A DNA stretch of 64,000 bases from Bacteroidia bacterium (lineage in GTDB: Bacteria > Bacteroidota > Bacteroidia > AKYH767-A > OLB10): positions 186,001 to 250,000 of the forward strand of contig JAEUTH010000042.1 of the NCBI GenBank assembly GCA_016788165.1, read 5' to 3'. Of this stretch, positions 2,329 to 25,820 are shown piece by piece; positions within the stretch are counted from its first letter, which is position 1, and the number at the start of each line of letters is the position of its first letter. The position numbers and the translations under genes are program-made. Below the pieces are notes generated by a model that was given only the letters and a program-made list of their open reading frames with translations, was not told the origin of the DNA and searched no databases.

Positions 2329-5300
2329 ATGTTGCATTTTTTAAAATTGCTTAAAAGCTATGTTGCTTTAAATGTTTGTTTATTCATAAGCATTAGTGTT
2401 TTTAGTATTACTGCATTTGCACAACCCAAATTAGTTACATTCACATTTTATGGTAATGCGCAAGGTATGCTTGCCGAAAACATAAATGCATTTGTGCAGG
2501 ATGATAAAGGTTTTATGTGGATTGGCAGCAGTGATGGTTTGCTCAAATTTGATGGCCGAACTTTTAAACTTTATAGGAAAAATGACAACAAAAATGCAAT
2601 ACCCGGTAACAGTGTAAAATCACTGGTTTTATTAAACAGCAAACTTTGGATTGCAACAAATGAAGGGCTGTGCACCTATCAAGATGATCGTTTTTTTACC
2701 ATTCCCAATTTAAATAAAATAAACTTCAATGCATTAAACACTATGGCGGCATCGGCTGATGGTTTTATGTATTTGGCTTTTGATAAAGACAGGCTTTTAA
2801 AATTTGATACTAAATCCAAACAACCTGTATTTTCAATTATAAGCAATAAAATTTTAACTACGTATGCATTATATCCGTTGGATAAAAATCATTTAATAAC
2901 CGGGCACATTGGCACATCAATTTTATGTTATGTAGATAATAAAAAAGTAGCTACACGCCTTGGCTACCAAAAGGAGCAATTTAAATTCGGCTACACCATA
3001 ACAGCAATTGCACGCGATAATAAAAACCAATATTGGTGTGGTGCATGGGATAATGGCTTGCATTGTTTCAATACAAATTTAACGCATAAGGAATCGTTTG
3101 TTTTTAACAACATGCCGGGCTATAATTCGATAAGCGATGAGATTACTTGCCTTGCTTTTATTAATGACAGTTGCCTTTGGTTTGGTACTAAAAACAATGG
3201 CCTTTTCGAATTTAACACCTATAGTAAAACACTGCATCCCATACAAGCCCAACATGAATTACCACAACGTATTAATACCATTTACGTTGATAAATTGAAA
3301 CGAATTTGGATAGGCACACCTTCGGGCCTGGCATTATACGACCCGCATCAAACCCAAATTGAAAGGTTTAAGCTGACTACTGGCCAAGGCAAAAAATTAA
3401 TGGCCAATTGTTTTATCCGATACAATGATACGGTGCTGCTAATTGGTACACAATCAGGCATTGTAGTAAATACACCTACCAAACAATATCTGCAACCACT
3501 TACTCATCGTGCACAAAACCAAGCGGTATTCAGCATGGCTTTCGACTTTAAAAACCGACTGATTGTAGGCACCAATCAAACTATTTTGCGCATGCACTCG
3601 TGGATGCAGTTTGACACCTTGCGTGGCAGCACACCTGACATGATGCAGCAAATGGTTTCGACACGGGTTTCTACTATTGATAATATTGAAGCAAAATACC
3701 CTTTAATAATCAGCAATTTTTATGGGCACTTTTTGGTTTTAATTGATAGTAATTTTGAAGCCAACTATATGGTGCTTTTACATGGCAATCAAATTGAAAA
3801 CCTGGTTTATAAAGTGTTGGTTGACAAAAATCAAAATATTTGGTGTGCCGGTGCAACTTATGGATTGCACAGTATCAACAAAATAGAAAAACATGAAGTT
3901 GATCTCCCACCCAAATTATTTGGTGCTTTGTTAGGCAGCTATAACCCATTTCATCTTAATACAAACGATTTATCATTTGATAAACACGCCTATTTATTTG
4001 CGCCCGGCAAACCCTATATACTTTACAATGCAGACCAGCAATATAATGTGCTTGACATTTTGCCATTTAGCGATAGCACATATATTGTTTCCATAATGGG
4101 CAATGGGTTACATTACTTTAATCCAAATACAGCTAAACATTATACATCCATCAAATCTGATCAAAAAACATTCAGAGGCCTGCAGTTGGATGCAAACCAT
4201 AATATATGGGCAATAAGTGGCAATTATTTAGTGCGATACAATACAACTAAAAAAACCTGGCTACACATTGATGTTAATGATGGATTGCCGGCATCGGGTT
4301 TAAACAACACCATGTATAACGATAAACTGTTTTTTTATGCCGGAGGTATGGGTTACTATATTAAATTTAATCCCTTGTCTATCGACTCTTCACTAACACG
4401 GCAGCCACTATACCTTTCGGGTTTACAACTTAACAACATCATTGCCGATAGTTTACTTTATGACAAAGAACCACACATCAGCCAAAAATTTAACAGCATC
4501 AATTTTCAATATGCCTATCTGGAATTTACAAACCCAAAAGCCATAAACTATCGCTACAAATTAGAAGGATTAAATCAGGAATGGATAAATGCTGGCAACG
4601 AAAATCATGTGGTGTTTAGCAATTTAGGATCGGGTAATTATCAATTTAAAGTAGCTGCTTATTATAAAGACAATGAAACCATGTTGGCGCAAGCAAGCTA
4701 TAGTTTTTATATAGAGCCCTTTTGGTATAACACGTGGTGGTTTAAAATATCAATTGCATGCTTGTTGGTTTTATCAGGATATGGCATATACCGATACCGC
4801 CTCAGTCAATTGCATAAATTTTATAATATCAGAAATAACATAGCACGCAATTTACATGATGAAGTAGGGGCTTCGTTATCCAGTATCTTAATTGGAAGCC
4901 AACTTATTAAGCGTATTACCCCCCCCGATGCATTGCAACACCATACCATAATTGATTCGATAAATAAAGCATCATCACAAAGCATAAGCAATATGAGTGA
5001 TATCGTTTGGAGTTTAAACCCAAGCAATGATACCGGAGAAAAAATGCGCATTAAAATGCAGGAAGTATTATTTCAATTGTTGGAACAACAAAATGTATTG
5101 GTACATTTTAACTGCACGGCTGCCTTTGATGCATTGCAAATAAATATGGACGTTAGGCGCAACTTATTTTTAATTTTTAAAGAGTGCATTCATAACATAG
5201 CAAAATATGCCAAAGCAAACCGGGTAGTTATCAATATTGACATTGTATCAACACAACTTATTTTTATAATAGAAGATGATGGCATTGGTTTTGACGCCAG

Positions 5301-13602: not shown

Positions 13603-15498
13603 TTAATTCATCCACTTTTCCATCCACATCTGAAGCATTAAAATTTTCCAAATCCGATGAAAATCTTCGATGTCTGATTTTAAATAAGCATGTATCATTT
13701 TTTCGATTGTCTTATGGTTAAGCAATCCGTATGCATTAATTTTATCAGCATTTACGTAAGCAAGCAAAATGTCTTTGTGCTCATTTTTGTACCATTTCTC
13801 TATAGGTATTCTAAACCCCATCTTAGGTCTTTCCATAATTTCTTTGGGCAGGTATTTATGCGTTATATCGCGCAAAATACGTTTACCGGTGCCGTTATGC
13901 AGTTTAAATGCAGCCGGTAGTTGTGCTGCCCATTCAATTATGCGATAATCTAATAAAGGTTCGCGTCCTTCTAAACTTACAGCCATGGTGGCACGGTCAA
14001 CCTTTTGTAGTATATCGTCAACCAAAAAAGTTTGATAATCGAGCCACAAAAAATGGTCGAGCATATCGCTACTGCGCAAATTGGCAAAGTCGTCAAATGC
14101 CGTAATACTCTTTGTAAATTCGGGTTTTAATAATTGCCTCACTTCTGCAACTGTCATCGCTTGCGTTATGACATTAAATGCATCGGCATGGTGATTTGCT
14201 TTTAAAATCAGTTTTAATTTTTCGAGCCTGTCAGGTACTGCCAGGTTGCTTCGTTTAAAAGGTTGCGTTATGTTTATTGGCAGGCTTCCTAACGTCTTTA
14301 CAAAACCGGGCACTTTATTAAGTTTATTAATGTACTGTAAACCTTTTGCATACTTCGTATATCCGGCAAAGGTTTCGTCACCCCCATCGGCACTTAAGGC
14401 TACGGTTACATGCTGCCGCGCCATTTTACTTACCAAATAAGTAGGTATGGCCGATGAGTCGGCAAAAGGCTCGTCATACATTTGGGGCAGCATGGGTATT
14501 ATATCCAATGCTTCTTTATAAGTACAGGTATATGCATGATGCTCGGTGCCCAGATGCTTGGCCACATTGCCTGCATGTATGGCTTCGTTATAGGTTTCTT
14601 CTTCGAAACCTATAGTAAACGTTTTAAGTTTTTGTGTTTGTTGGCTTTGCAACAATGCTGTAACCAAACTGCTATCATAACCTCCACTTAAAAATATACC
14701 TACCGGTACATCGGCCACCATGCGGTAATTACATGCCGATAAAAGCAGTTTTTCGGTTTCGGCAATTGCATCTTTATAATCAATTTTTACTTTGGGTTTA
14801 TTGTAAGCATCAGTTACATCCCAATATTTTTCAGTTGTAAGCGCTTGCGTTTTTAAGTTGAGCTTAAGCCAATGGCCGGGCAATAACTTATAGGTATGCT
14901 TAAAAATACAATGTGGTGCCGGTATATAACCATGCTGAAAATACAAAGCCAGTGCATCTACATCAATTTGCTTAACGAAACTGCCGTGTTGATGAAACGA
15001 TTTTAATTCGCTGCCATATAAAAACAAATTTTGATGCTGATAGTAAAATAAGGGTTTAACGCCAGCCCTATCGCGGCAAGCAACCAGTACTTGCTCTTTT
15101 GTATCGTAAATAACAAAAGCAAACATGCCGATAAACCGGTTTACACAGGCATAGCCCCAGGTAATATAGGCCTGCAAAATAACTTCGGTATCGCTATTGC
15201 TTTTAAAGCGGATACCGGCCACCATCAAGGTTTTTTTTATTTCGGCATGGTTGTAAATTTCGCCATTAAAGGTAATGCAGTAACGCCCATCATTGCTGTA
15301 CATGGGTTGATGCCCCAAAGCCGAAAGTTCGATAATGGACAAGCGCCTGAAACCCAAACCAACCGTAGCATATGCATGTTGAAAATAAGCATGCCCGGCA
15401 TCATCGGGGCCACGGTGCAAAATACTTTGCGTCATAGCATGCAATACACTTTCAGGTGTGCTACATTTAAAATCAATAAAGCCTGCTAAACCACACAT
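13603..15498 (-). CDS. asnB: Asparagine synthase (glutamine-hydrolysing)-type amidotransferase
   Basis: A 631-residue class II glutamine amidotransferase fused to a synthetase domain. The catalytic Cys2 is exposed in MCGLAGFIDF, and RRLSIIELSALGHQPM and FNGEIYN form the glutaminase site. The ATP-pyrophosphatase motif SGGYDSSL lies at about 268-275. The canonical reaction is aspartate + glutamine + ATP to asparagine. Homologues of this length are also common in polysaccharide clusters, including exosortase-associated ones, where they probably amidate a sugar acid or other substrate. Its location between a flippase/glycosyltransferase pair and surface proteins makes either role possible. The gene symbol reflects family membership and not a proven substrate. 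Confidence 0.9.
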   Translation of the reverse strand: MCGLAGFIDFKCSTPESVLHAMTQSILHRGPDDAGHAYFQHAYATVGLGFRRLSIIELSALGHQPMYSNDGRYCITFNGEIYNHAEIKKTLMVAGIRFKSNSDTEVILQAYITWGYACVNRFIGMFAFVIYDTKEQVLVACRDRAGVKPLFYYQHQNLFLYGSELKSFHQHGSFVKQIDVDALALYFQHGYIPAPHCIFKHTYKLLPGHWLKLNLKTQALTTEKYWDVTDAYNKPKVKIDYKDAIAETEKLLLSACNYRMVADVPVGIFLSGGYDSSLVTALLQSQQTQKLKTFTIGFEEETYNEAIHAGNVAKHLGTEHHAYTCTYKEALDIIPMLPQMYDEPFADSSAIPTYLVSKMARQHVTVALSADGGDETFAGYTKYAKGLQYINKLNKVPGFVKTLGSLPINITQPFKRSNLAVPDRLEKLKLILKANHHADAFNVITQAMTVAEVRQLLKPEFTKSITAFDDFANLRSSDMLDHFLWLDYQTFLVDDILQKVDRATMAVSLEGREPLLDYRIIEWAAQLPAAFKLHNGTGKRILRDITHKYLPKEIMERPKMGFRIPIEKWYKNEHKDILLAYVNADKINAYGLLNHKTIEKMIHAYLKSDIEDFHRIWKILMLQMWMEKWMN

Positions 15499-15521
15499 TG
15501 TTTTTAAAAAATTAGAACTGC

Positions 15522-15529
15522 CAAAGCTA
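15522..15529 (-). promoter_or_regulatory. Possible -7 box for the asnB-like gene
   Basis: On the minus strand TAGCTTTG matches TAnnTTTG and would start transcription about 15 bases before the ATG at 15498. No convincing -33 element was found. The rest of the 287-base gap to the next gene shows nothing recognisable. Confidence 0.3.
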
Positions 15530-15785
15530 TAAATTGATACCTACTAATTTAAACTAATATCACCAGGGTTATTTCATGCTAACTACTACACGCTAATTTC
15601 GAAGCAGATTAAGAATAAATACTATATTCGGCACCAAACCACAATAACCAATCCCTTTAAACTAATCACACGCCTACTAATTATTGTACCCTGCTGCCTT
15701 AAAATTTATTGCCATTTTTTGTCAATCTATTATTCGATAAATTATACCTATTAATCAAACTAAACATTTAAAAACCTTTTTGCTT

Positions 15786-18700
15786 ATGAGAAAGTCAAAA
15801 TTACCTTTCAACTTTTATAAGAAGCCACTAATGTGGTCAATCTTTTTTTTATTGATATCAATTGGTATTAGCGCACAAAACAAACATACCAACATTGTTT
15901 CATCTGTTGCTACACAAAATAGAGTTTCAGCAAACCGGAAAGAACTTAACAAACAAGCCCATGAATCAGAAAAAATAATTGAACCTAAAAGAAAGGCTAA
16001 AAGTAAGCTTACTGATAATAAAGAAATAGAAAGGGAAAAAGAAGCTGAAGAAGAAGAAGAACGCGAGAAAGAGAAAAAACGAGAAGGCGCTTTACAACGA
16101 CTTCAGCGCGATCAGCTCATGATGAAAGACCCAAAGTTGGGTTATATTCCAAATGAAAGGTTGCTGGTCGCCAAACAGTATAAGGATCAATTAATGGCAC
16201 TTTCTATGGGGCCGTTAAACGGTGTAACCTGGAAAGAACAAGGACCAAACAACCAAGGTGGCCGATGCCGTGCCATGGTGGTTGACCCAAATGACGGTAG
16301 CGGAAATACCGTTTGGGCCGGCAGCGTTGGTGGTGGCCTTTGGAAAACAACGAATATTAATGCAAGCACACCTACATGGGTACCTATCACCGACCTTTTT
16401 GCAAACCTGGCAATCACTTCCATAGCTTTCGACCCAGGCAATGCGCAAATCATGTATTTTACTACCGGTGAGGGTTATGGTAATAGTGATGCCATACGTG
16501 GTTTGGGCGTTTGGAAAAGCACAGATGGTGGCAACACCTGGGCACAGTTAGCAGCTACCAATACCAGCACTTTTCATTTTTGTCAGAAAGTAATTGTAAG
16601 CAATACAGGCGTAATATTGGTTGCCACAGCAAGTGGCGGATTGCAGCGCTCAATAAATGGCGGCACATCGTTTAGTAAAGTTTTGGGTACCGGTTTGGGC
16701 ATTAGCGGAGCCGGAAATAATTTTTGCTATGATGTGGATATGGCAGCCAATGGCGATATTTACAGCACACTCGATGGCTCCGTTCATAAATCAACCAATG
16801 CGGGTGCAACATTTGGCGCTGCACAAAGCCTGCCGATAACAGCAGGCCGAATTGAATTAGCTTGCGCACCTAACGATGCCAATTATGTTTATGCACTTAT
16901 TGAAAACGGCAGCACCGTAGCCGGCATTTTGCAAACCACAGATGCAGGTACTACCTGGCTTACCCGAACCGAACCCGATGATGCCGACCCGGGAATACCA
17001 AATGCCGATTTTTCGAGAGGACAGGCATGGTACGATTTAGCTATTGCTGTTGACCCTAATAATAAAGACAGGCTGTTTGTTGGCGCAATAGATATTTTTG
17101 TTAGTGGCGATGGTGCAAACACCTGGTCACAGGTTACACATTGGTATGGTGGGTTTGGTTTTCAGAATGTGCATGCCGATCAGCATAATATTTTATTTCA
17201 AAATGGAAGCTCATCAATAGCTTATTTTTCGAATGATGGTGGTATTTATCGCTGTACAGATGCAAATACCGTTTTACCAACTATTACACGAAAAGATTAC
17301 AACTTCAACACCGCACAGTTTTATTCATGTGCCATACATCCAACAGCACAAACATCTCATTATTTAGCAGGCGCCCAAGATAATGGTTCGCATAAATTTG
17401 TAAGCAATGGCATTCAAAACACCACTGAAGTTACCGGTGGTGATGGTGCTTTTTGCCACATTGATCAGGACCAACCGCAGTTTCAATTTACAAGCTATGT
17501 ATATAATGACCACTACCGCTCAAGCGATGGTGGTGTTACATGGACTAATGTTACGGGCTCAGGCGGACAATTTATAAACCCTACCGATTATGATGATGTT
17601 AACAATAAACTTTATTGTTGCCGTAATAGCAACGATTACCTCCGATGGGACGACCCGCAAACCGGCAGTACTTTTTCAATTGTTTCGGTGCCGGGTTTTG
17701 GAGGACAAGTTTCTGCTGTAAAAGTTTCGCCTAATACAGCAAACCGGGTTTTCTTTGGAATTAGTAATGGCGACATTTTTAGAGTCGATAATGCGCATAC
17801 CGGTACACCAACAGCAACCAATATAAGTACCGGCTTACCTTCGGGTTATGCCGCTTGCGTTGAAGTTGAAACCGGCAACGACAATCACCTGCTTGTTACC
17901 TATAGTAACTATGGTGTAAATAGTGTTTGGGAGAGTACGGATGGTGGCGCTACCTGGACTTCGGTTGAAGGTAACCTGCCTGATATGCCTATTCGCTGGG
18001 CATTATTTAATCCTAATAACAGCGATCAGGCCATACTGGCAACTGAGTTAGGAGTTTGGAGTACGGATGACCTCAATGGCAACTCAACCAATTGGGGTGC
18101 AAGTAATTCAGGCCTTGCCAATGTAAGGGTAGATATGTTGCAATTGCGTCAAAGCGATAAATATGTAATTGCTGCCACACATGGCAGAGGGTTATTTGCA
18201 TCTGACTTGTTTACAATACCAACAGCCATTTTCGTTTCTGACAAACAACTTGCATACGTAAATAGCAATATCCAATTTACAAATTATAGTTATAAAGGCA
18301 CTTCATGGTCGTGGGATTTTGGTGATGGCTCTCCCTTATCAAATTCTGAAAATCCTTCACATAGTTATACCAATGGTGGAAAATACTCAGTAACCTTAAC
18401 CATAAACGCGGGAGCAGCCACTTTAACAAAAACACAATACATCCACATACTTCCAAATAGAGGCACTCCTTATGTGGTGGCATCAGACGGAGGAACTTTT
18501 GAAACAAATCTTAATGACTTTGGTTCGCAATCAATAAGAGGTGGTATAGATAAATGGGAACGTGGTGTACCATCCAATTTTCTTACTACCGTAAATTCGC
18601 CTGTTAATGCCTGGAAAACCGACCTTGATGCTGATTTAACCCCGGGCAACTATTCCTGTGTTTTGCAAACTCCATCATATAACTTTACAGCGGCTGGAAC

Positions 18701-21700
18701 TTATACTTTACGTTTCAGAAGAAGCATGGAAGTGGTATTTTGTAATGCTCCTTTTGCTGTGCAAGTTCAATATTCAACTGACAAAGGACTAAACTGGACA
18801 AGGTTAGGTGTAGATGCGGACCCGAATGCAACCAACTGGTATAACCGCGGGCCTGCAGCAGCATGCCCGATTGATGCTTCTGTTTTCTCTGACAGGTATG
18901 GCTGGACTTTAACAGGGCATAATACTTTATGTACTTATAATTTAACAACAGGTGTTCCGGCATTAATTGGTCAGTCAGATGTTACATTTCGATTTGTTTT
19001 ATCCGTAATCTCTGGTTATAGCGGTAGTGCTTATGCTGCAGATGGATTTATGGTTGATGATTTTGAAATATTAGGACCTAACAATCCGGCAAGTGGTACA
19101 GCAACTATTGTTACCACAGGTACACTTAATCCATTTTCGTCTTGTGCAGGTTTTGTTTCTGCAGCACAATCGTTTACGGTATCAGGCTCAGGCCTTACAG
19201 CAAATCTGGATGTAACAGCACCCACAGGTTATGAAGTTTCGTTAACAGCAGGTAGTGGATATGCTGCAACACTTGCATTAACTCCGGTTTCAGGAAATGT
19301 AAATACAACCACCATATTTGTGCGGTTGACAAATTCTGCATCCGGAACGCCTTCTGGTAATGTAGCTTGTACATCAGCCGGGGCTATTACGCAAAACGTT
19401 GCGGCTAGTGGAACCGTTCATGCAAATCCTGCTCCATCCATATCAGGCAGTTTATCTTTCTGTGCAGGTGGTTCTACTACATTAGATGCAGGTGTGTTTG
19501 CGAGTTATTTATGGTCAAACGGTGCTACTACACAAAGTATTTTGGTTAATACAGCCGGCACATTTACGGTAACTGTTACCGATGGTAATGGTTGTACAGG
19601 TGTGGCTTCGGTTACTACTACGGTTCATGCAAATCCATCGCCATCTATTTCAGGCAGTTTATCTTTCTGCGCAGGTGGTTCTACTACTTTAGATGCAGGT
19701 GTGTTTGCAAGTTATTTATGGTCAAACGGTGCTACTACACAAAGTATTTTGGTTAATACAGCCGGTACATTTACGGTAACTGTTACCGATGGTAATGGTT
19801 GTACAGGTTTGGCTTCGGTTACTACTACGATTAGTGGAAGTTTAAATCCAAGCATTTCAGGTAGTTTATCTTTCTGTGCAGGTGGTTCTACTACATTAGA
19901 TGCAGGTGTGTTTGCAAGTTATTTATGGTCAACAGGGGCTACTACACAAAGTATTTTGGTTAATACAGCCGGCACATTTACGGTAACTGTTACCGATGGC
20001 AATGGTTGTACAGGTTTGGCTTCGGTTACTACTACGGTTCATGCAAATCCATCGCCATCCATATCAGGCAGTTTATCTTTCTGTGCAGGTGGTTCTACTA
20101 CATTAGATGCAGGTGTGTTTGCAAGTTATTTATGGTCAAACGGTGCTACTACACAAAGTATTTTGGTTAATACAGCCGGCACATTTACGGTAACTGTTAC
20201 CGATGGCAATGGTTGTACAGGTGTGGCTTCGGTTACTACTACGGTTCATGCAAATCCATCGCCATCCATATCAGGCAGTTTATCTTTCTGTGCAGGTGGT
20301 TCTACTACTTTAGATGCAGGTGTGTTTGCAAGTTATTTATGGTCAAACGGTGCTACTACACAAAGTATTTTGGTTAATACAGCCGGCACATTTACGGTAA
20401 CTGTTACCGATGGTAATGGTTGCACGGGTATGGCTTCGGTTACTACTACGGTTCATGCAAATCCTGCTCCATCTATTTCAGGCAGTTTATCTTTCTGTGC
20501 AGGTGGTTCTACTACTTTAGATGCAGGTTTGTTTGCAAGTTATTTATGGTCAACAGGTGCGACTACACAAAGTATTTTGGTTAATACGGCCGGTACATTT
20601 ACAGTAACTGTTACCGATGGCAATGGTTGCACGGGCATGGCTTCGGTTACTACTACGGTTAGTGGAAGTTTAAATCCAAGCATTTCAGGCAGTTTGTCTT
20701 TCTGTGCAGGTGGTTCTACTACGTTAGATGCAGGTGTGTTTGCAAGTTATTTATGGTCAACAGGGGCTACTACACAAAGTATTTTGGTTAATACGGCCGG
20801 TACATTTACAGTAACTGTTACCGATGGTAATGGTTGCACGGGTATGGCTTCGGTTACTACTACGGTTCATGCAAATCCATCGCCAAGCATTTCAGGCAGT
20901 TTATCTTTCTGTGCAGGTGGTTCTACTACTTTAGATGCAGGTTTGTTTGCAAGTTATTTATGGTCAACAGGGGCTACTACACAAAGTATTTTGGTTAATA
21001 CGGCCGGTACATTTACAGTAACTGTTACCGATGGCAATGGTTGTACAGGTGTGGCTTCGGTTACTACTACGGTTGGAAGTTCAACACCAGCTCAGCCCGG
21101 CTTAATAACCGGACCTGTTGTAGTATGTAAAAATAGTAATGTAAGCTATTCAATAGCAGCTGTGCCAGGGGCAACCGGCTACACATGGACAGCCACTTCA
21201 GGTGCAACAGTAAGTAGCGGACAAGGCTCAACTAATGTGGTAATTAATTTCAGCAATTTGGCAACTAATGCCACACTTTCTGTTGTAGCAACTAATTTAT
21301 GCGGTTCAAGTATTGCACGTACATTATCATATACAGTAGCTACCGAAGCACCTGCTAAACCTGCAACCATTACTGGCATGTTGTTCGGCCTATGTAATAA
21401 GCCCAGTGTGCCATATTCGTGTCCTACGGTGGTAGGAGCCACATCTTATTTATGGTCAGTACCTACCGGGGTTACAATACTTTCAGGGCAAGGTACCAAC
21501 TCCATCACCGTTCAATACACCGGATCATTTACAGGCTCAGGAACATTAAGTGTATCAGCTCAAAATGGTTGTGGTAGTAGTGCACTTACGTCACGCATAG
21601 TTAATGCAAAGCCCCAACAGCCTGTAATTTCAGGACAAAACTGGGCATGCAAAGGGCAGGCAGGACTAACGTACACCGTATCCGCAGTTGCGGGTGCTAC

Positions 21701-22139
21701 AAGCTATCAGTGGATACCCGTGCCCGGCAGTACCATTACAAGTGGCCAGGGTACAACATCTATTACATACAAATGGGGTAATATTCATGGCGTTGTAAAG
21801 TGTATCGCTAAAAATGCCTGTGGAAACAGTATTGCAGGTAATTTATCAGTTTCATTTACGTGTAAAACGACTGACACAGACGAAAACTTTTCCGATATAA
21901 CACTTTATCCAAACCCGGCATCTGAAACTGCTACGTTATCATTTGAAAGCTTTATTGAAGGGGAAGCTGCAGTTTATATCAGGGACATGATTGGACAAGA
22001 ATTATTAAACGACAACGTGAAAGTGGAAAAAGGAAATAATAATTATATACTACGTCTATCCGAATTCCCTAAAGGCGTATATTTAGTAAGCCTTAAATTT
22101 AAGGGCATTTCCCAAAACAGCAGGCTTATAATACAATAA
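15786..22139 (+). CDS. Giant T9SS surface protein: BNR-type propeller, PKD, eight identical repeats
   Basis: A 2117-residue predicted adhesin or surface protein. Order: signal peptide (1-32, ending ISA-QN); a Lys/Glu-rich charged segment (about 55-110); a large VPS10/BNR-like propeller (about 125-815) with repeated VWKSTDGGNTW-type motifs; a PKD domain (about 818-892, WDFGDGSPLS); a jelly-roll-like domain (about 893-1100); a Ser/Thr-rich beta domain (about 1102-1211); eight 69-residue repeats (1212-1763); three PKD-like domains, each with VPGATGYTW-like and SSGQGS-like motifs (about 1766-2030); and a T9SS type A sorting domain (LYPNPASETATLSF). ATG 15786 is preferred over the TTG at 15780 because it gives MRKSKLPFNFYKK and a normal signal peptide. 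No catalytic residues were recognised. A strong terminator follows. Confidence 0.9.
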   Translation: MRKSKLPFNFYKKPLMWSIFFLLISIGISAQNKHTNIVSSVATQNRVSANRKELNKQAHESEKIIEPKRKAKSKLTDNKEIEREKEAEEEEEREKEKKREGALQRLQRDQLMMKDPKLGYIPNERLLVAKQYKDQLMALSMGPLNGVTWKEQGPNNQGGRCRAMVVDPNDGSGNTVWAGSVGGGLWKTTNINASTPTWVPITDLFANLAITSIAFDPGNAQIMYFTTGEGYGNSDAIRGLGVWKSTDGGNTWAQLAATNTSTFHFCQKVIVSNTGVILVATASGGLQRSINGGTSFSKVLGTGLGISGAGNNFCYDVDMAANGDIYSTLDGSVHKSTNAGATFGAAQSLPITAGRIELACAPNDANYVYALIENGSTVAGILQTTDAGTTWLTRTEPDDADPGIPNADFSRGQAWYDLAIAVDPNNKDRLFVGAIDIFVSGDGANTWSQVTHWYGGFGFQNVHADQHNILFQNGSSSIAYFSNDGGIYRCTDANTVLPTITRKDYNFNTAQFYSCAIHPTAQTSHYLAGAQDNGSHKFVSNGIQNTTEVTGGDGAFCHIDQDQPQFQFTSYVYNDHYRSSDGGVTWTNVTGSGGQFINPTDYDDVNNKLYCCRNSNDYLRWDDPQTGSTFSIVSVPGFGGQVSAVKVSPNTANRVFFGISNGDIFRVDNAHTGTPTATNISTGLPSGYAACVEVETGNDNHLLVTYSNYGVNSVWESTDGGATWTSVEGNLPDMPIRWALFNPNNSDQAILATELGVWSTDDLNGNSTNWGASNSGLANVRVDMLQLRQSDKYVIAATHGRGLFASDLFTIPTAIFVSDKQLAYVNSNIQFTNYSYKGTSWSWDFGDGSPLSNSENPSHSYTNGGKYSVTLTINAGAATLTKTQYIHILPNRGTPYVVASDGGTFETNLNDFGSQSIRGGIDKWERGVPSNFLTTVNSPVNAWKTDLDADLTPGNYSCVLQTPSYNFTAAGTYTLRFRRSMEVVFCNAPFAVQVQYSTDKGLNWTRLGVDADPNATNWYNRGPAAACPIDASVFSDRYGWTLTGHNTLCTYNLTTGVPALIGQSDVTFRFVLSVISGYSGSAYAADGFMVDDFEILGPNNPASGTATIVTTGTLNPFSSCAGFVSAAQSFTVSGSGLTANLDVTAPTGYEVSLTAGSGYAATLALTPVSGNVNTTTIFVRLTNSASGTPSGNVACTSAGAITQNVAASGTVHANPAPSISGSLSFCAGGSTTLDAGVFASYLWSNGATTQSILVNTAGTFTVTVTDGNGCTGVASVTTTVHANPSPSISGSLSFCAGGSTTLDAGVFASYLWSNGATTQSILVNTAGTFTVTVTDGNGCTGLASVTTTISGSLNPSISGSLSFCAGGSTTLDAGVFASYLWSTGATTQSILVNTAGTFTVTVTDGNGCTGLASVTTTVHANPSPSISGSLSFCAGGSTTLDAGVFASYLWSNGATTQSILVNTAGTFTVTVTDGNGCTGVASVTTTVHANPSPSISGSLSFCAGGSTTLDAGVFASYLWSNGATTQSILVNTAGTFTVTVTDGNGCTGMASVTTTVHANPAPSISGSLSFCAGGSTTLDAGLFASYLWSTGATTQSILVNTAGTFTVTVTDGNGCTGMASVTTTVSGSLNPSISGSLSFCAGGSTTLDAGVFASYLWSTGATTQSILVNTAGTFTVTVTDGNGCTGMASVTTTVHANPSPSISGSLSFCAGGSTTLDAGLFASYLWSTGATTQSILVNTAGTFTVTVTDGNGCTGVASVTTTVGSSTPAQPGLITGPVVVCKNSNVSYSIAAVPGATGYTWTATSGATVSSGQGSTNVVINFSNLATNATLSVVATNLCGSSIARTLSYTVATEAPAKPATITGMLFGLCNKPSVPYSCPTVVGATSYLWSVPTGVTILSGQGTNSITVQYTGSFTGSGTLSVSAQNGCGSSALTSRIVNAKPQQPVISGQNWACKGQAGLTYTVSAVAGATSYQWIPVPGSTITSGQGTTSITYKWGNIHGVVKCIAKNACGNSIAGNLSVSFTCKTTDTDENFSDITLYPNPASETATLSFESFIEGEAAVYIRDMIGQELLNDNVKVEKGNNNYILRLSEFPKGVYLVSLKFKGISQNSRLIIQ
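19419..21074 (+). repeat. Eight tandem 207-bp in-frame coding repeats
   Basis: Exactly eight copies of a 207-base unit (69 residues), all in frame inside the giant surface protein. Each unit contains SLSFCAGGSTTLDAG, YLWS[NT]GATTQSILVNTAG and TVTDGNGCTG, with two conserved Cys that could form a disulfide in an Ig-like fold. Copies 4 and 5 differ at only about five of 207 bases. Linkers are HANP[AS]PS in six copies and SGSLNPS in copies 3 and 7. Variant sites (WSNG or WSTG, GVF or GLF, GV/GL/GM before ASV) are shuffled between copies, as expected from unequal recombination or gene conversion. The true copy number could differ if the assembly used short reads. Confidence 0.95.
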
Positions 22140-22160
22140 ACAAAAACGTTTCCGTCATCA

Positions 22161-22198
22161 AGCCGAAAGGGTAGCATGTGCTACCCTTTCGGCTTTTT
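22161..22198 (+). terminator. Intrinsic terminator after the giant repeat protein
   Basis: A 16-bp perfect inverted repeat pairs 22161-22176 with 22179-22194 (AGCCGAAAGGGTAGCA and its complement) and is followed by a T-run. The nominal 2-base loop would open to a larger one in RNA. It lies 21 bases after the stop codon. Confidence 0.92.
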
Positions 22199-22295
22199 AC
22201 GCTACGTTCAGATAAAATACATATAAGTAAACTTTCAGCAAAAAGTGTTGCTACAATAATGTGGTAGTGTCAAAACCATAATTGAAACAAATAAA

Positions 22296-22303
22296 TATTT
22301 TTG
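22296..22303 (+). promoter_or_regulatory. Possible -7 box before the first methyltransferase
   Basis: TATTTTTG followed by CAC matches TAnnTTTG. A start point near 22309 would put the alternative TTG start at 22301 upstream of the transcript, which supports an ATG start at 22319 or 22328. No good -33 partner was found. Confidence 0.35.
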
Positions 22304-22327
22304 CACGTTTATCATTACATGCATTAC

Positions 22328-23269
22328 ATGCTGCAGCAATTCATATCACCTGTTACAGGCAATCCTTTACAAGAACAAAATGGTGTATTAACAAACCATT
22401 CAGGCGAAAAATTTCCGGTAATACATGCCATACCCCGCTTTGTACCCAGCGATAATTATGCAAGTGCTTTTGGTTTACAATGGAAATCGTTTGCCAAAAT
22501 TCAGCTCGATAGTTACAATGGCAGTACCATTAGTTACGACCGCTTGTTACGTTGCTTCGGAAATAATTTACAACAAATAGCGCAAAAAAAATTATTGGAA
22601 GTAGGCTGTGGTGCCGGCCGTTTTACCGAACATTTAATTAAAGCAGGCGCCTATGTACATAGTGTTGACTTAAGCGAAGCCGTAGAAGTAAACTACAGCA
22701 ATATGCAGGGTGCAGCCAATTATCAGGTTGCACAAGCCAACGTATATAACCTGCCTTATGCACCACAAAGTTTTGATGTTGTAATGTGTTTGGGCGTAAT
22801 ACAACATACCCCTAACCCCGAAAAAACAATTGAAGCACTTTGGAATATGGTAAAACCCGGTGGCCTTTTGGTAATTGACCACTATACTTTTGATTGGATG
22901 TATTACCTGAAACCCATATTGCTTTATCGTGCTTTTTTACGAAAGATGAAACCTGAACGCTCGAAAAAAATTGTAGAACGTCTGGTACGCTTTTTCTTTC
23001 CTTTACATTGGAAATACAGAAACTCAAAAATAGCAACCGTGTTGCTTAACCGTATATCGCCTTGTTATGTGTATATAAAAACGTTTCCGCAAATGGATCA
23101 CGATTTTCATTACGAATTAACCCGTTTAGATACCTATGATGGATTAACTGATTACTACAAACATTTGCGTAGTCGAAAACAAATTGAAAATAAATTAAAA
23201 GCGCTGGACGCAAAAAATATTAAAGTGTGGAAAGGTGGCAATGGCGTTGAAGCAATGTGTAATAAATAA
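22328..23269 (+). CDS. Class I SAM-dependent methyltransferase
   Basis: About 313 residues. A short N-terminal segment (MLQQFISPVTGNPLQEQNG) resembles a Trm112-like or metal-free zinc-ribbon leader found in glycan-cluster methyltransferases. A Rossmann methyltransferase domain follows with motif I LLEVGCGAGRFTEHL, the acidic motif II SVDLSEAV, FDVVMCLGVIQHTPNP and KPGGLLVIDHY. The C-terminal 120 residues are basic and do not match a domain I recognise. The ATG at 22328 (or 22319) is chosen over an upstream TTG. Only 8 bases separate it from the second methyltransferase gene, so they share an operon. Surface glycan or lipid methylation is likely from context, not proven. Confidence 0.87.
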   Translation: MLQQFISPVTGNPLQEQNGVLTNHSGEKFPVIHAIPRFVPSDNYASAFGLQWKSFAKIQLDSYNGSTISYDRLLRCFGNNLQQIAQKKLLEVGCGAGRFTEHLIKAGAYVHSVDLSEAVEVNYSNMQGAANYQVAQANVYNLPYAPQSFDVVMCLGVIQHTPNPEKTIEALWNMVKPGGLLVIDHYTFDWMYYLKPILLYRAFLRKMKPERSKKIVERLVRFFFPLHWKYRNSKIATVLLNRISPCYVYIKTFPQMDHDFHYELTRLDTYDGLTDYYKHLRSRKQIENKLKALDAKNIKVWKGGNGVEAMCNK

Positions 23270-24081: not shown

Positions 24082-24152
24082 ATGCAAAGTTTTTAATTAA
24101 AAATTTAACCCCTCCATTTCTTAAACACAATGTCAAGTAAAATCTTTTGAAA

Positions 24153-25820
24153 ATGGTTTTATCGCGTCTGTATCTTTATTCGATCTTTACTTTAATATTA
24201 GTTTGCAAGAACGTTTATTTAATTTCGCAGCCTAACGTGTGGGTACAAAAAGCATCTTTGCCCGGATTGGCAAGATACGAAGCAGCAGCATTCACACTTA
24301 ATGGTAAAGGCTACTTTATTTCCGGGGGTGATTACAATACGGGAAATATTTTTAATGACGTTTGGGAGTATGACCCTGTAAATGATCTTTGGACGCAAAA
24401 GGCAAGCTTACCTGGTTTGGCACGTTATGGTGCATCTGCATTTTCAGTAGGCAATAAAGGATACATTACAACCGGATTATCATCATGGGGATCTGGTGCT
24501 TTAAATGATTTGTGGGAGTACGATCCAATCAGTAATAGTTGGACACAGAGAGCGAATTTTCCGGGCGTGCCGCGTTACGATGCATGTGGCTTTTCTATAG
24601 GTCAAAAAGGCTATGTTGGTTTTGGATATCCACCCATACTTAAAGATGTGTTTGCATATGATCCAACAACAAATTCCTGGTCACAAATTGCAGCATTTCC
24701 AGGGTCATCACGTCAAAGTCTTTCTACATTTGAAATAGATGGGTTAGGATATTTTTCATGTGGGTCAAATAGCGGAACTGTTTCCTATAATGATTTATGG
24801 TGTTATAATCCTTCAACAAATTCTTGGTCACAAAAAGCTAATTTTCCGGGAGCTCCCCGTTATGCAACTAATGGATTTAGCTTAAGCGGCAAAGGCATTA
24901 TAGGTGGTGGTTGCAATAATTCCCAATCGTTTAATGATTACTACATCTATAATCCTACTTCAGATAGTTGGTGTCAGTTGTTATCATTTCCAGCTCAAGC
25001 GCGTTATGCTGGAGATGCCTTTTCAATCGGTCAAAAAGGATATACTGGTTTAGGACGCGACAAGTTACATATTTATTACTATGACTTTTGGGAACTTACC
25101 TACATACCGGCAACATTCACTTTTCAGGATACAGCTTGCAGCTTAGATATTGGTTTTAATGCACAGGCTATCAATCCCAATGCATTTAATTGGTCGTTTG
25201 GCGATGGTGGTATAAGTACTTTATCAAATCCAAGTCATACCTATGCAAGCAGCGGCAGCTATAATGTGCAGCTTATAACTTATTACAACTGTGGCAGCGA
25301 TACCGTTACACAACAGGTACAGGTAACCAATACCACAACAGCTGCTTTAGCCCTAAATAAAACCTGCAACGAAGTTAGTTTTACCAATCATTCAATTAAT
25401 GCAACAAATTATCTTTGGAGTTTTGGCGATGGTAATACCTCCACACAAACCACACCTGTGCACCATTATACCGATACCGGTACTTATGCTATTTCACTCA
25501 TTGCATACAACAACAATTGTACGGATAGTATAGCAACACAAATTAAAATTGAAACTGCAGGCAGTAATATTTTTATTCCCAATTGCTTTACACCTAATGA
25601 CGATGGGTTAAATGATGTTTTTAGCATAACCGGTTCTGTTTGCGATACCTTTGAAATAATGATAATTAACCGTTGGGGCTTTCAGGTTGCATACCTCAAC
25701 AAAAACAATCAAGTATGGAATGGTAAATACAAAAATGCCGATGTACCTGAAGGGATTTACTTTTATAAAGCCAAAACCAATGGGAAAGAATTTACCGGCA
25801 CCATCTCATTATTACGCTGA
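24153..25820 (+). CDS. Kelch-repeat/PKD protein with gliding-type T9SS C-terminal domain
   Basis: 555 residues, secreted. After an N-terminal hydrophobic signal (ending LISQP), about six kelch motifs follow (residues about 30-325), each with a pattern like NDVWEYDPVNDLWTQKASLP and ARYGASAFSVGNKGYI, forming a beta-propeller. Two PKD domains (FNWSFGDGGISTLSNPSHTY and YLWSFGDGNTSTQTTPVHHY) precede a CHU_C / gliding-motility-type T9SS domain (IPNCFTPNDDGLNDVF ... GIYFYKAKTNGKEFTGTISLLR). ATG 24153 is preferred to the TTG at 24147. The protein is predicted to be displayed or released by T9SS; the ligand is unknown. Confidence 0.9.
   Translation: MVLSRLYLYSIFTLILVCKNVYLISQPNVWVQKASLPGLARYEAAAFTLNGKGYFISGGDYNTGNIFNDVWEYDPVNDLWTQKASLPGLARYGASAFSVGNKGYITTGLSSWGSGALNDLWEYDPISNSWTQRANFPGVPRYDACGFSIGQKGYVGFGYPPILKDVFAYDPTTNSWSQIAAFPGSSRQSLSTFEIDGLGYFSCGSNSGTVSYNDLWCYNPSTNSWSQKANFPGAPRYATNGFSLSGKGIIGGGCNNSQSFNDYYIYNPTSDSWCQLLSFPAQARYAGDAFSIGQKGYTGLGRDKLHIYYYDFWELTYIPATFTFQDTACSLDIGFNAQAINPNAFNWSFGDGGISTLSNPSHTYASSGSYNVQLITYYNCGSDTVTQQVQVTNTTTAALALNKTCNEVSFTNHSINATNYLWSFGDGNTSTQTTPVHHYTDTGTYAISLIAYNNNCTDSIATQIKIETAGSNIFIPNCFTPNDDGLNDVFSITGSVCDTFEIMIINRWGFQVAYLNKNNQVWNGKYKNADVPEGIYFYKAKTNGKEFTGTISLLR

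Follow-up and report, generated by a model that had tools for sequence, protein, structure and literature searches.

Eight mosaic domain repeats as a probable recombining stalk of a T9SS-exported protein in a Bacteroidia genome

The window analysed here, a stretch of 64,000 nucleotides from the genome of a Bacteroidia bacterium, contains a gene in which one domain is repeated eight times with little change. This raises the question of what such an array contributes to its protein, and by which process its copies arose and have been kept alike. An earlier note, made from the letters of the window, had proposed recent expansion or ongoing recombination that could vary the length of a surface stalk while keeping the frame. 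According to the analysis below, the array probably represents a recombining eight-domain stalk of a surface protein exported by T9SS, in which a native cassette is joined to a body of likely foreign origin and the number of units would be changeable.

The host protein and its repeat array

The open reading frame (ORF) that harbours the array starts with a TTG codon at 15780, with an in-frame ATG two codons further on, and its hydrophobic N-terminus resembles, by eye, a signal peptide. The features to which we refer are as follows:

15780..22139, forward strand: host ORF of 2119 aa, predicted T9SS-exported multidomain protein
16035..19085, forward strand: body (aa 86-1102) with a Sortilin/Vps10-BNR-type propeller region, PKD_4 and a further beta-rich region
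19086..19418, forward strand: single 111-aa segment at the body-to-array junction, without family
19419..21074, forward strand: array of eight head-to-tail units of 207 bp (aa 1214-1765), each predicted to be one PKD/Ig-like domain
19833..19853, forward strand: variant linker SGSLNPS of copy 3
20661..20681, forward strand: variant linker SGSLNPS of copy 7, identical to that of copy 3 in its nucleotides
20868..21074, forward strand: copy 8, accounted for without mismatch by five pieces that match copies 2, 3, 6, 7 and 4
21075..21860, forward strand: three PKD_6 domains, with the M36-protease gene on C38 as closest paralogue (51% at the aa level)
21903..22136, forward strand: Por_Secre_tail / TIGR04183 type A T9SS sorting domain (aa 2042-2119)

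In Pfam, the host protein matches a Sortilin-Vps10 propeller stretch (aa 334-526), PKD_4 (aa 831-888), three stretches of PKD_6 and Por_Secre_tail (aa 2042-2118); distant PDB matches of the body are the BNR-repeat propeller proteins 6p2m and 6p2l. For the 111-aa segment following the body there was neither a family match nor a second copy in the genome. The C-terminal tail scores 39.4 bits with PF18962 (cut-off 27) and 36.2 bits with TIGR04183 of NCBIfam (cut-off 23). SprA, a core T9SS gene and the single one from which we read the presence of this system, was detected in the genome (SprA_N, 519.8 bits on C37) and in none of 14 control genomes. Proteins with a type A T9SS tail are generally located on the cell surface. 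The tail, the position of the array between the propeller-type body and the PKD_6/T9SS module and the predicted fold of its domains lead us, like the earlier note, to infer a surface stalk: after export and anchoring at the C-terminus, eight PKD/Ig-like domains would hold the body, presumably the functional head, away from the outer membrane. The order of body, array and anchor agrees with a projecting rod of the kind described for Periscope Proteins. The region 15000-23000 gave no Rfam match that would point to an RNA element. A second T9SS-type exported protein is encoded nearby (24147-25820), consisting of a Kelch propeller, PKD domains and a CHU_C tail.

Tandem Repeats Finder reported one strong array in the window, at 19416-21074, with a period of 207, 8.0 copies, 92% matches and 0% indels. 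Cut at 19419, all eight units are exactly 207 nt (69 aa) long, in frame and free of stop codons, in agreement with the period and copy number given before. A unit extends from the linker HANP(S/A)PS or SGSLNPS to ...CTG(V/L/M)ASVTTT(V/I). The array has sharp edges: comparison of the units with the 207 nt on either flank gives 136-143 mismatches. Between units, the differences range from 5 of 207 bases, found for copies 4 and 5 as noted earlier and likewise for copies 1 and 4, to 24 of 207. The SGSLNPS linker had been assigned to copies 3 and 7; it is indeed confined to these two, which are identical at all 21 linker bases. Variable columns number 33 of 207, 19 of them third codon positions; outside the linker the latter account for 16 of 20.

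Each unit is predicted to form one small PKD/Ig-like domain. The model of a single unit, a small all-beta domain (pLDDT 89.7, pTM 0.70), was derived from an alignment of 50 rows of diverse units (four of the eight window units and 46 of 47 non-redundant other units), whereas a three-unit prediction from six shifted three-unit rows reached a pLDDT of 32.5 and was discarded. Both Foldseek and VIA-align put the unit model among PKD/Ig-like domains. In its best structural matches by VIA-align, it superimposes on a neck domain of GhpA (grappling hook protein A of Aureispira sp. CCB-QB1) with Z 9.4 and 1.6 Å over 68 residues, and on a collagenase PKD domain with Z 9.1 and 1.9 Å over 69 residues; none of the Foldseek matches reached E 0.001. 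By sequence, GhpA is the only strong relative of the unit in the PDB (E=3.6e-28). A single unit does not reach any Pfam cut-off, and two units together pass that of K319L-like_PKD (29.0 bits, cut-off 27). Ig_7 (PF19081) is matched by the window unit below its cut-off only. Full membership in the SprB family was discarded, as the window unit did not match PF13573 at E values up to 10 and thus stays below the curated cut-off. Among the 50 members of the unit alignment, 19 match SprB (PF13573) and 13 match Ig_7 (PF19081).

Probable exchange among the copies

Variant sites are distributed over the copies in a way that a single tree does not accommodate. For 31 of the 55 pairs of informative core sites the two sites are incompatible with one tree, a value reached by 7 of 880 recombination-free simulations on a neighbour-joining (NJ) tree and by 0 of 815 under a coalescent (the usable ones among 1000 run per model). 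With the linker sites collapsed, a clustering (PHI-type) test showed that incompatibility clusters along the unit (P 0.002-0.011). Applied to the core sites alone (n=11) the test was not significant (P 0.38-0.55), and exchange tracts are therefore poorly localised; the value obtained with all 23 sites (P=0.0000) was set aside because linker sites change together. Copy 8 provides a clear case: it begins with the HANPSPS linker of copies 2, 4 and 5, continues with the AGC serine codon of copies 3 and 7, and is completed by pieces like copies 6, 7 and 4. Since a change between AGC and TCN serine codons needs two substitutions, chance convergence appears unlikely here. The mosaic described in the earlier note thus goes beyond chance, and its suggestion of recombination among the copies is supported by the incompatibility simulations, the collapsed-linker clustering and copy 8, but not by the clustering test restricted to core sites.

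Could the array nevertheless be a static one, built through a few old duplications of blocks, e.g. of four units, and altered by point mutation ever since, with a fixed length and no continuing exchange? Among the mean differences calculated for each lag (11.2-18.7), that for lag 4 is the lowest (11.2), copies 3 and 7 with exactly the same linker are four apart, as a four-unit block would pair them, and core dS between copies reaches 0.28. On the other hand, mutation without recombination rarely produced as many incompatible sites in our simulations, copies 1, 4 and 5 are closest to each other across different lags, and copy 8 requires five donor pieces. We consider a static array unlikely on these grounds. 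Synonymous divergence as a sign of old duplication, which the earlier note had named as evidence against its proposal, is seen in part: dS does exceed 0.2 for some pairs, but the mosaic explains this divergence better.

Returning to exchange between copies, the preferred explanation, the question is in which register it takes place. Homogenisation of adjacent copies as the main pattern received no support over all sites (P=0.34) and a weak signal for the core (P=0.04); within the unit, nt 131-207 gave the best evidence of sharing between neighbours (P=0.018). A pattern in which neighbours do not clearly stand out as the closest pairs agrees better with exchange in several registers than with a simple spread from neighbour to neighbour. 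The core values of dS (0.042-0.284) together with low dN (0-0.034) indicate repeated exchange under purifying selection and not one very recent burst. In such a scenario, inter-copy recombination, either by unequal crossing-over or by intragenic gene conversion, would keep the copies alike, while purifying selection would remove most amino-acid changes. With a period divisible by three, units can be gained or lost without disturbing the reading frame, so that the length of the stalk could change at this locus.

The age of the array can be gauged from other arrays in the same genome. We compared the window with 13 stretches of its own genome, chosen from DNA and protein matches, and with two stretches from elsewhere. 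In the window, nucleotide identity between neighbouring units is 90-98%, versus 56-78% in the own-genome arrays with which it was compared, and no other locus in the genome exceeded 75% identity to the unit across the greater part of its length. A tree was built from the 268 units of the compared stretches and is weak because of its few columns; in it the eight window units group as a single clade (support 86, not starred), adjoined by unit 2 of the C38 gene. The array is thus young relative to the others, and to this extent the recent expansion postulated before holds; core dS values up to 0.28 speak against a single recent event. A gene on C14 contains a three-unit higher-order repeat with 87-94% identity. 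This 1941-aa gene (within C14:52000-64000) has 20 units with repeat blocks 10/13/16, 11/14/17 and 12/15, so that units have been duplicated as a block at a second place in this genome. In addition, candidate giant adhesins are encoded on C24, C46 and C22 by ORFs of 4115, 4635 and at least 4666 aa, each of which contains 33-41 diverged units.

The other arrays of the genome compared above also bear on the idea that selection acts on the domain rather than on length, the repeats being binding sites (for ligand-binding avidity) or elements of a rigid repetitive lattice and not a spacer. Strong amino-acid conservation, with core dN of at most 0.034, would be in line with it. Yet selection at the protein level leaves unexplained the synonymous variants common to mosaic pieces, and the paralogous arrays of the same genome maintain the domain at the much lower neighbour identity given above, which makes this idea improbable. 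Mosaic synonymous variants provide a measurable signature that separates arrays undergoing exchange from old, diverged ones in the same genome.

Origin of the body and of the stalk-anchor cassette

Among the best 80 relatives of the body, 63 are complete to the body end within a closed ORF. The unit occurs in none of these 63, and in 59 of them at most 205 residues follow the body. The sole relative with units among the best 80 (L143) has five, and its body matches query residues 1-729 only. Because not one of the 63 complete orthologues carries the stalk, it is, judged from the sequences, a lineage-specific graft, and provides a clear case of a stalk added to a body that lacks one in all of them.

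Nine members of the same family possess the body, with 50-53% identity and ORFs of 1103-1255 aa. The nearest homologues are proteins of metagenome-assembled genomes (MAGs) labelled Acidobacteriota and Chitinophagaceae. A tree inferred by a quick method comprised 71 rows, namely the window plus whichever of the best 80 loci reached 44% identity and 700 matched body residues or more; loci from a separate genome search, in part the same contigs, were left out. In this tree the window body clusters with three Acidobacteriota-labelled MAGs (71-75%) and Ferruginibacter (69%). This suggests horizontal transfer of the body, in either direction, with the MAG names taken as deposited and binning errors being possible. 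The three Acidobacteriota-labelled proteins (L084, L085 and L086) end, by eye, in a different C-terminal domain without a T9SS tail; relative to the window body, this may reflect a transfer across phyla in which the tail was exchanged.

The C-terminal cassette of units, PKD_6 domains and tail is colinear with an M36 fungalysin-type protease encoded in the same genome (49% over 756 aa). As the body groups outside the family while the cassette aligns with this own-genome protease, the protein has the appearance of a chimera, made up of a probably foreign body and a native stalk-anchor cassette. Amplification of one unit type would have followed the joining of the two parts.

Unit number in relatives and known length-variable proteins

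Relatives were searched in 41 genomes, all of them from outside the genus of the window. In genus g4, which belongs to the family of the window genome, orthologous proteases carry the same unit type as the window at one place, with two units in G003, two in G016 and one in G011; the protease bodies of G003 and G011 are 96% identical. This difference of exactly one unit between orthologues of another gene lends indirect support to a stalk of variable length. The single unit of G011 could be due to assembly collapse, but the longest identical run between paired units is 79 nt in G003 and 68 nt in G016. In G019, a gap of 30 N (positions 3309-3338 of the locus on G019:C22) lies inside a unit, which indicates that such arrays break assemblies. 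In ten more distant protease orthologues, the part of the ORF that was examined contained no match to the unit. Unit identity is 0.919 within G003 and 0.948 within G016, compared with 0.786-0.814 between the two, whose upstream flanks share 0.809. Either concerted evolution or two separate duplications may have led to this pattern.

In the window array the longest exact run common to two copies measures 104 nt, so identical copies may have collapsed in the single assembly, and eight units may be a minimum count. That the assembly merged real copies of different strains or of paralogous loci into one array is very improbable, for although arrays of this kind break assemblies, as seen in G019, and identical runs are long, the genome has no second locus of comparable similarity, the window contains no N, and the array is in frame with the same gene on both sides.

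How does a recombining stalk of this kind relate to known systems? Periscope Proteins are defined by arrays of this type and by changes in repeat number through presumed homologous recombination (PMC8201768, PMC9704523). The window protein resembles their description in its tandem domains of more than 50 residues with high DNA identity, folded in their case and predicted to be so here (69 aa and 90-98% between neighbours in the window; PMC8201768), in a stalk set, as we postulate for the window protein, between a body at the N-terminus and a surface anchor at the C-terminus, and in the intragenic homologous recombination proposed for them (PMC8201768, PMC9704523). It differs in its T9SS export, its Bacteroidota-type genome and in an array known here from one assembly. 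In the main text of these two papers, words starting with Bacteroid are absent and T9SS is not used, and we found no paper in the open-licence literature that joins T9SS to Periscope Proteins in substance. For a gliding-motility-associated protein of Flavobacterium psychrophilum, hybrid assembly of different isolates has been described to give unit counts ranging from 35 to 88 (PMC8400371). As described there, it shares with the window protein the link to T9SS, the affiliation with Bacteroidota and repeats within the gene; it is a different protein (PMC8400371). GhpA (5898 aa; PDB 9flp and others) has related repeat domains by sequence and predicted fold. Unlike GhpA as a whole, the window protein matches in the repeat/PKD region only; full GhpA membership was rejected, as significant matches start at aa 1254 and the search with the body did not return GhpA. 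It is plausible that the window protein is a Periscope-protein-like T9SS stalk joining the length-variable surface proteins already known.

More tentatively, the window protein may be one member of a family-wide T9SS domain-cassette system, in which a native recombining stalk-anchor is placed on varied bodies, one of them cross-phylum, and in which units are gained, lost and homogenised, so that reach could be quickly retuned. If true, such a system would give the Bacteroidota a counterpart of Periscope Proteins in which the heads are exchangeable. The window array as read here would in itself extend the idea of a length-variable, self-homogenising stalk to T9SS proteins of environmental bacteria.

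The unit domain itself is common in the family, being present in all 24 genomes searched with from at least 53 to at least 144 matches each (up to 150 candidates scored per genome); what sets the window array apart is how alike its neighbouring units are. A mobile element as its carrier was rejected: the unit was found on just 10 of 72,556 plasmid records, every one with less than 60% identity. Three IMG/VR contigs (L164-L166) encode units 58% identical to those of the window, within a protein that also has a Laminin_G_3 domain. On L164 a portal-like protein is encoded nearby, and phages seem to use the unit domain in virion-type proteins.
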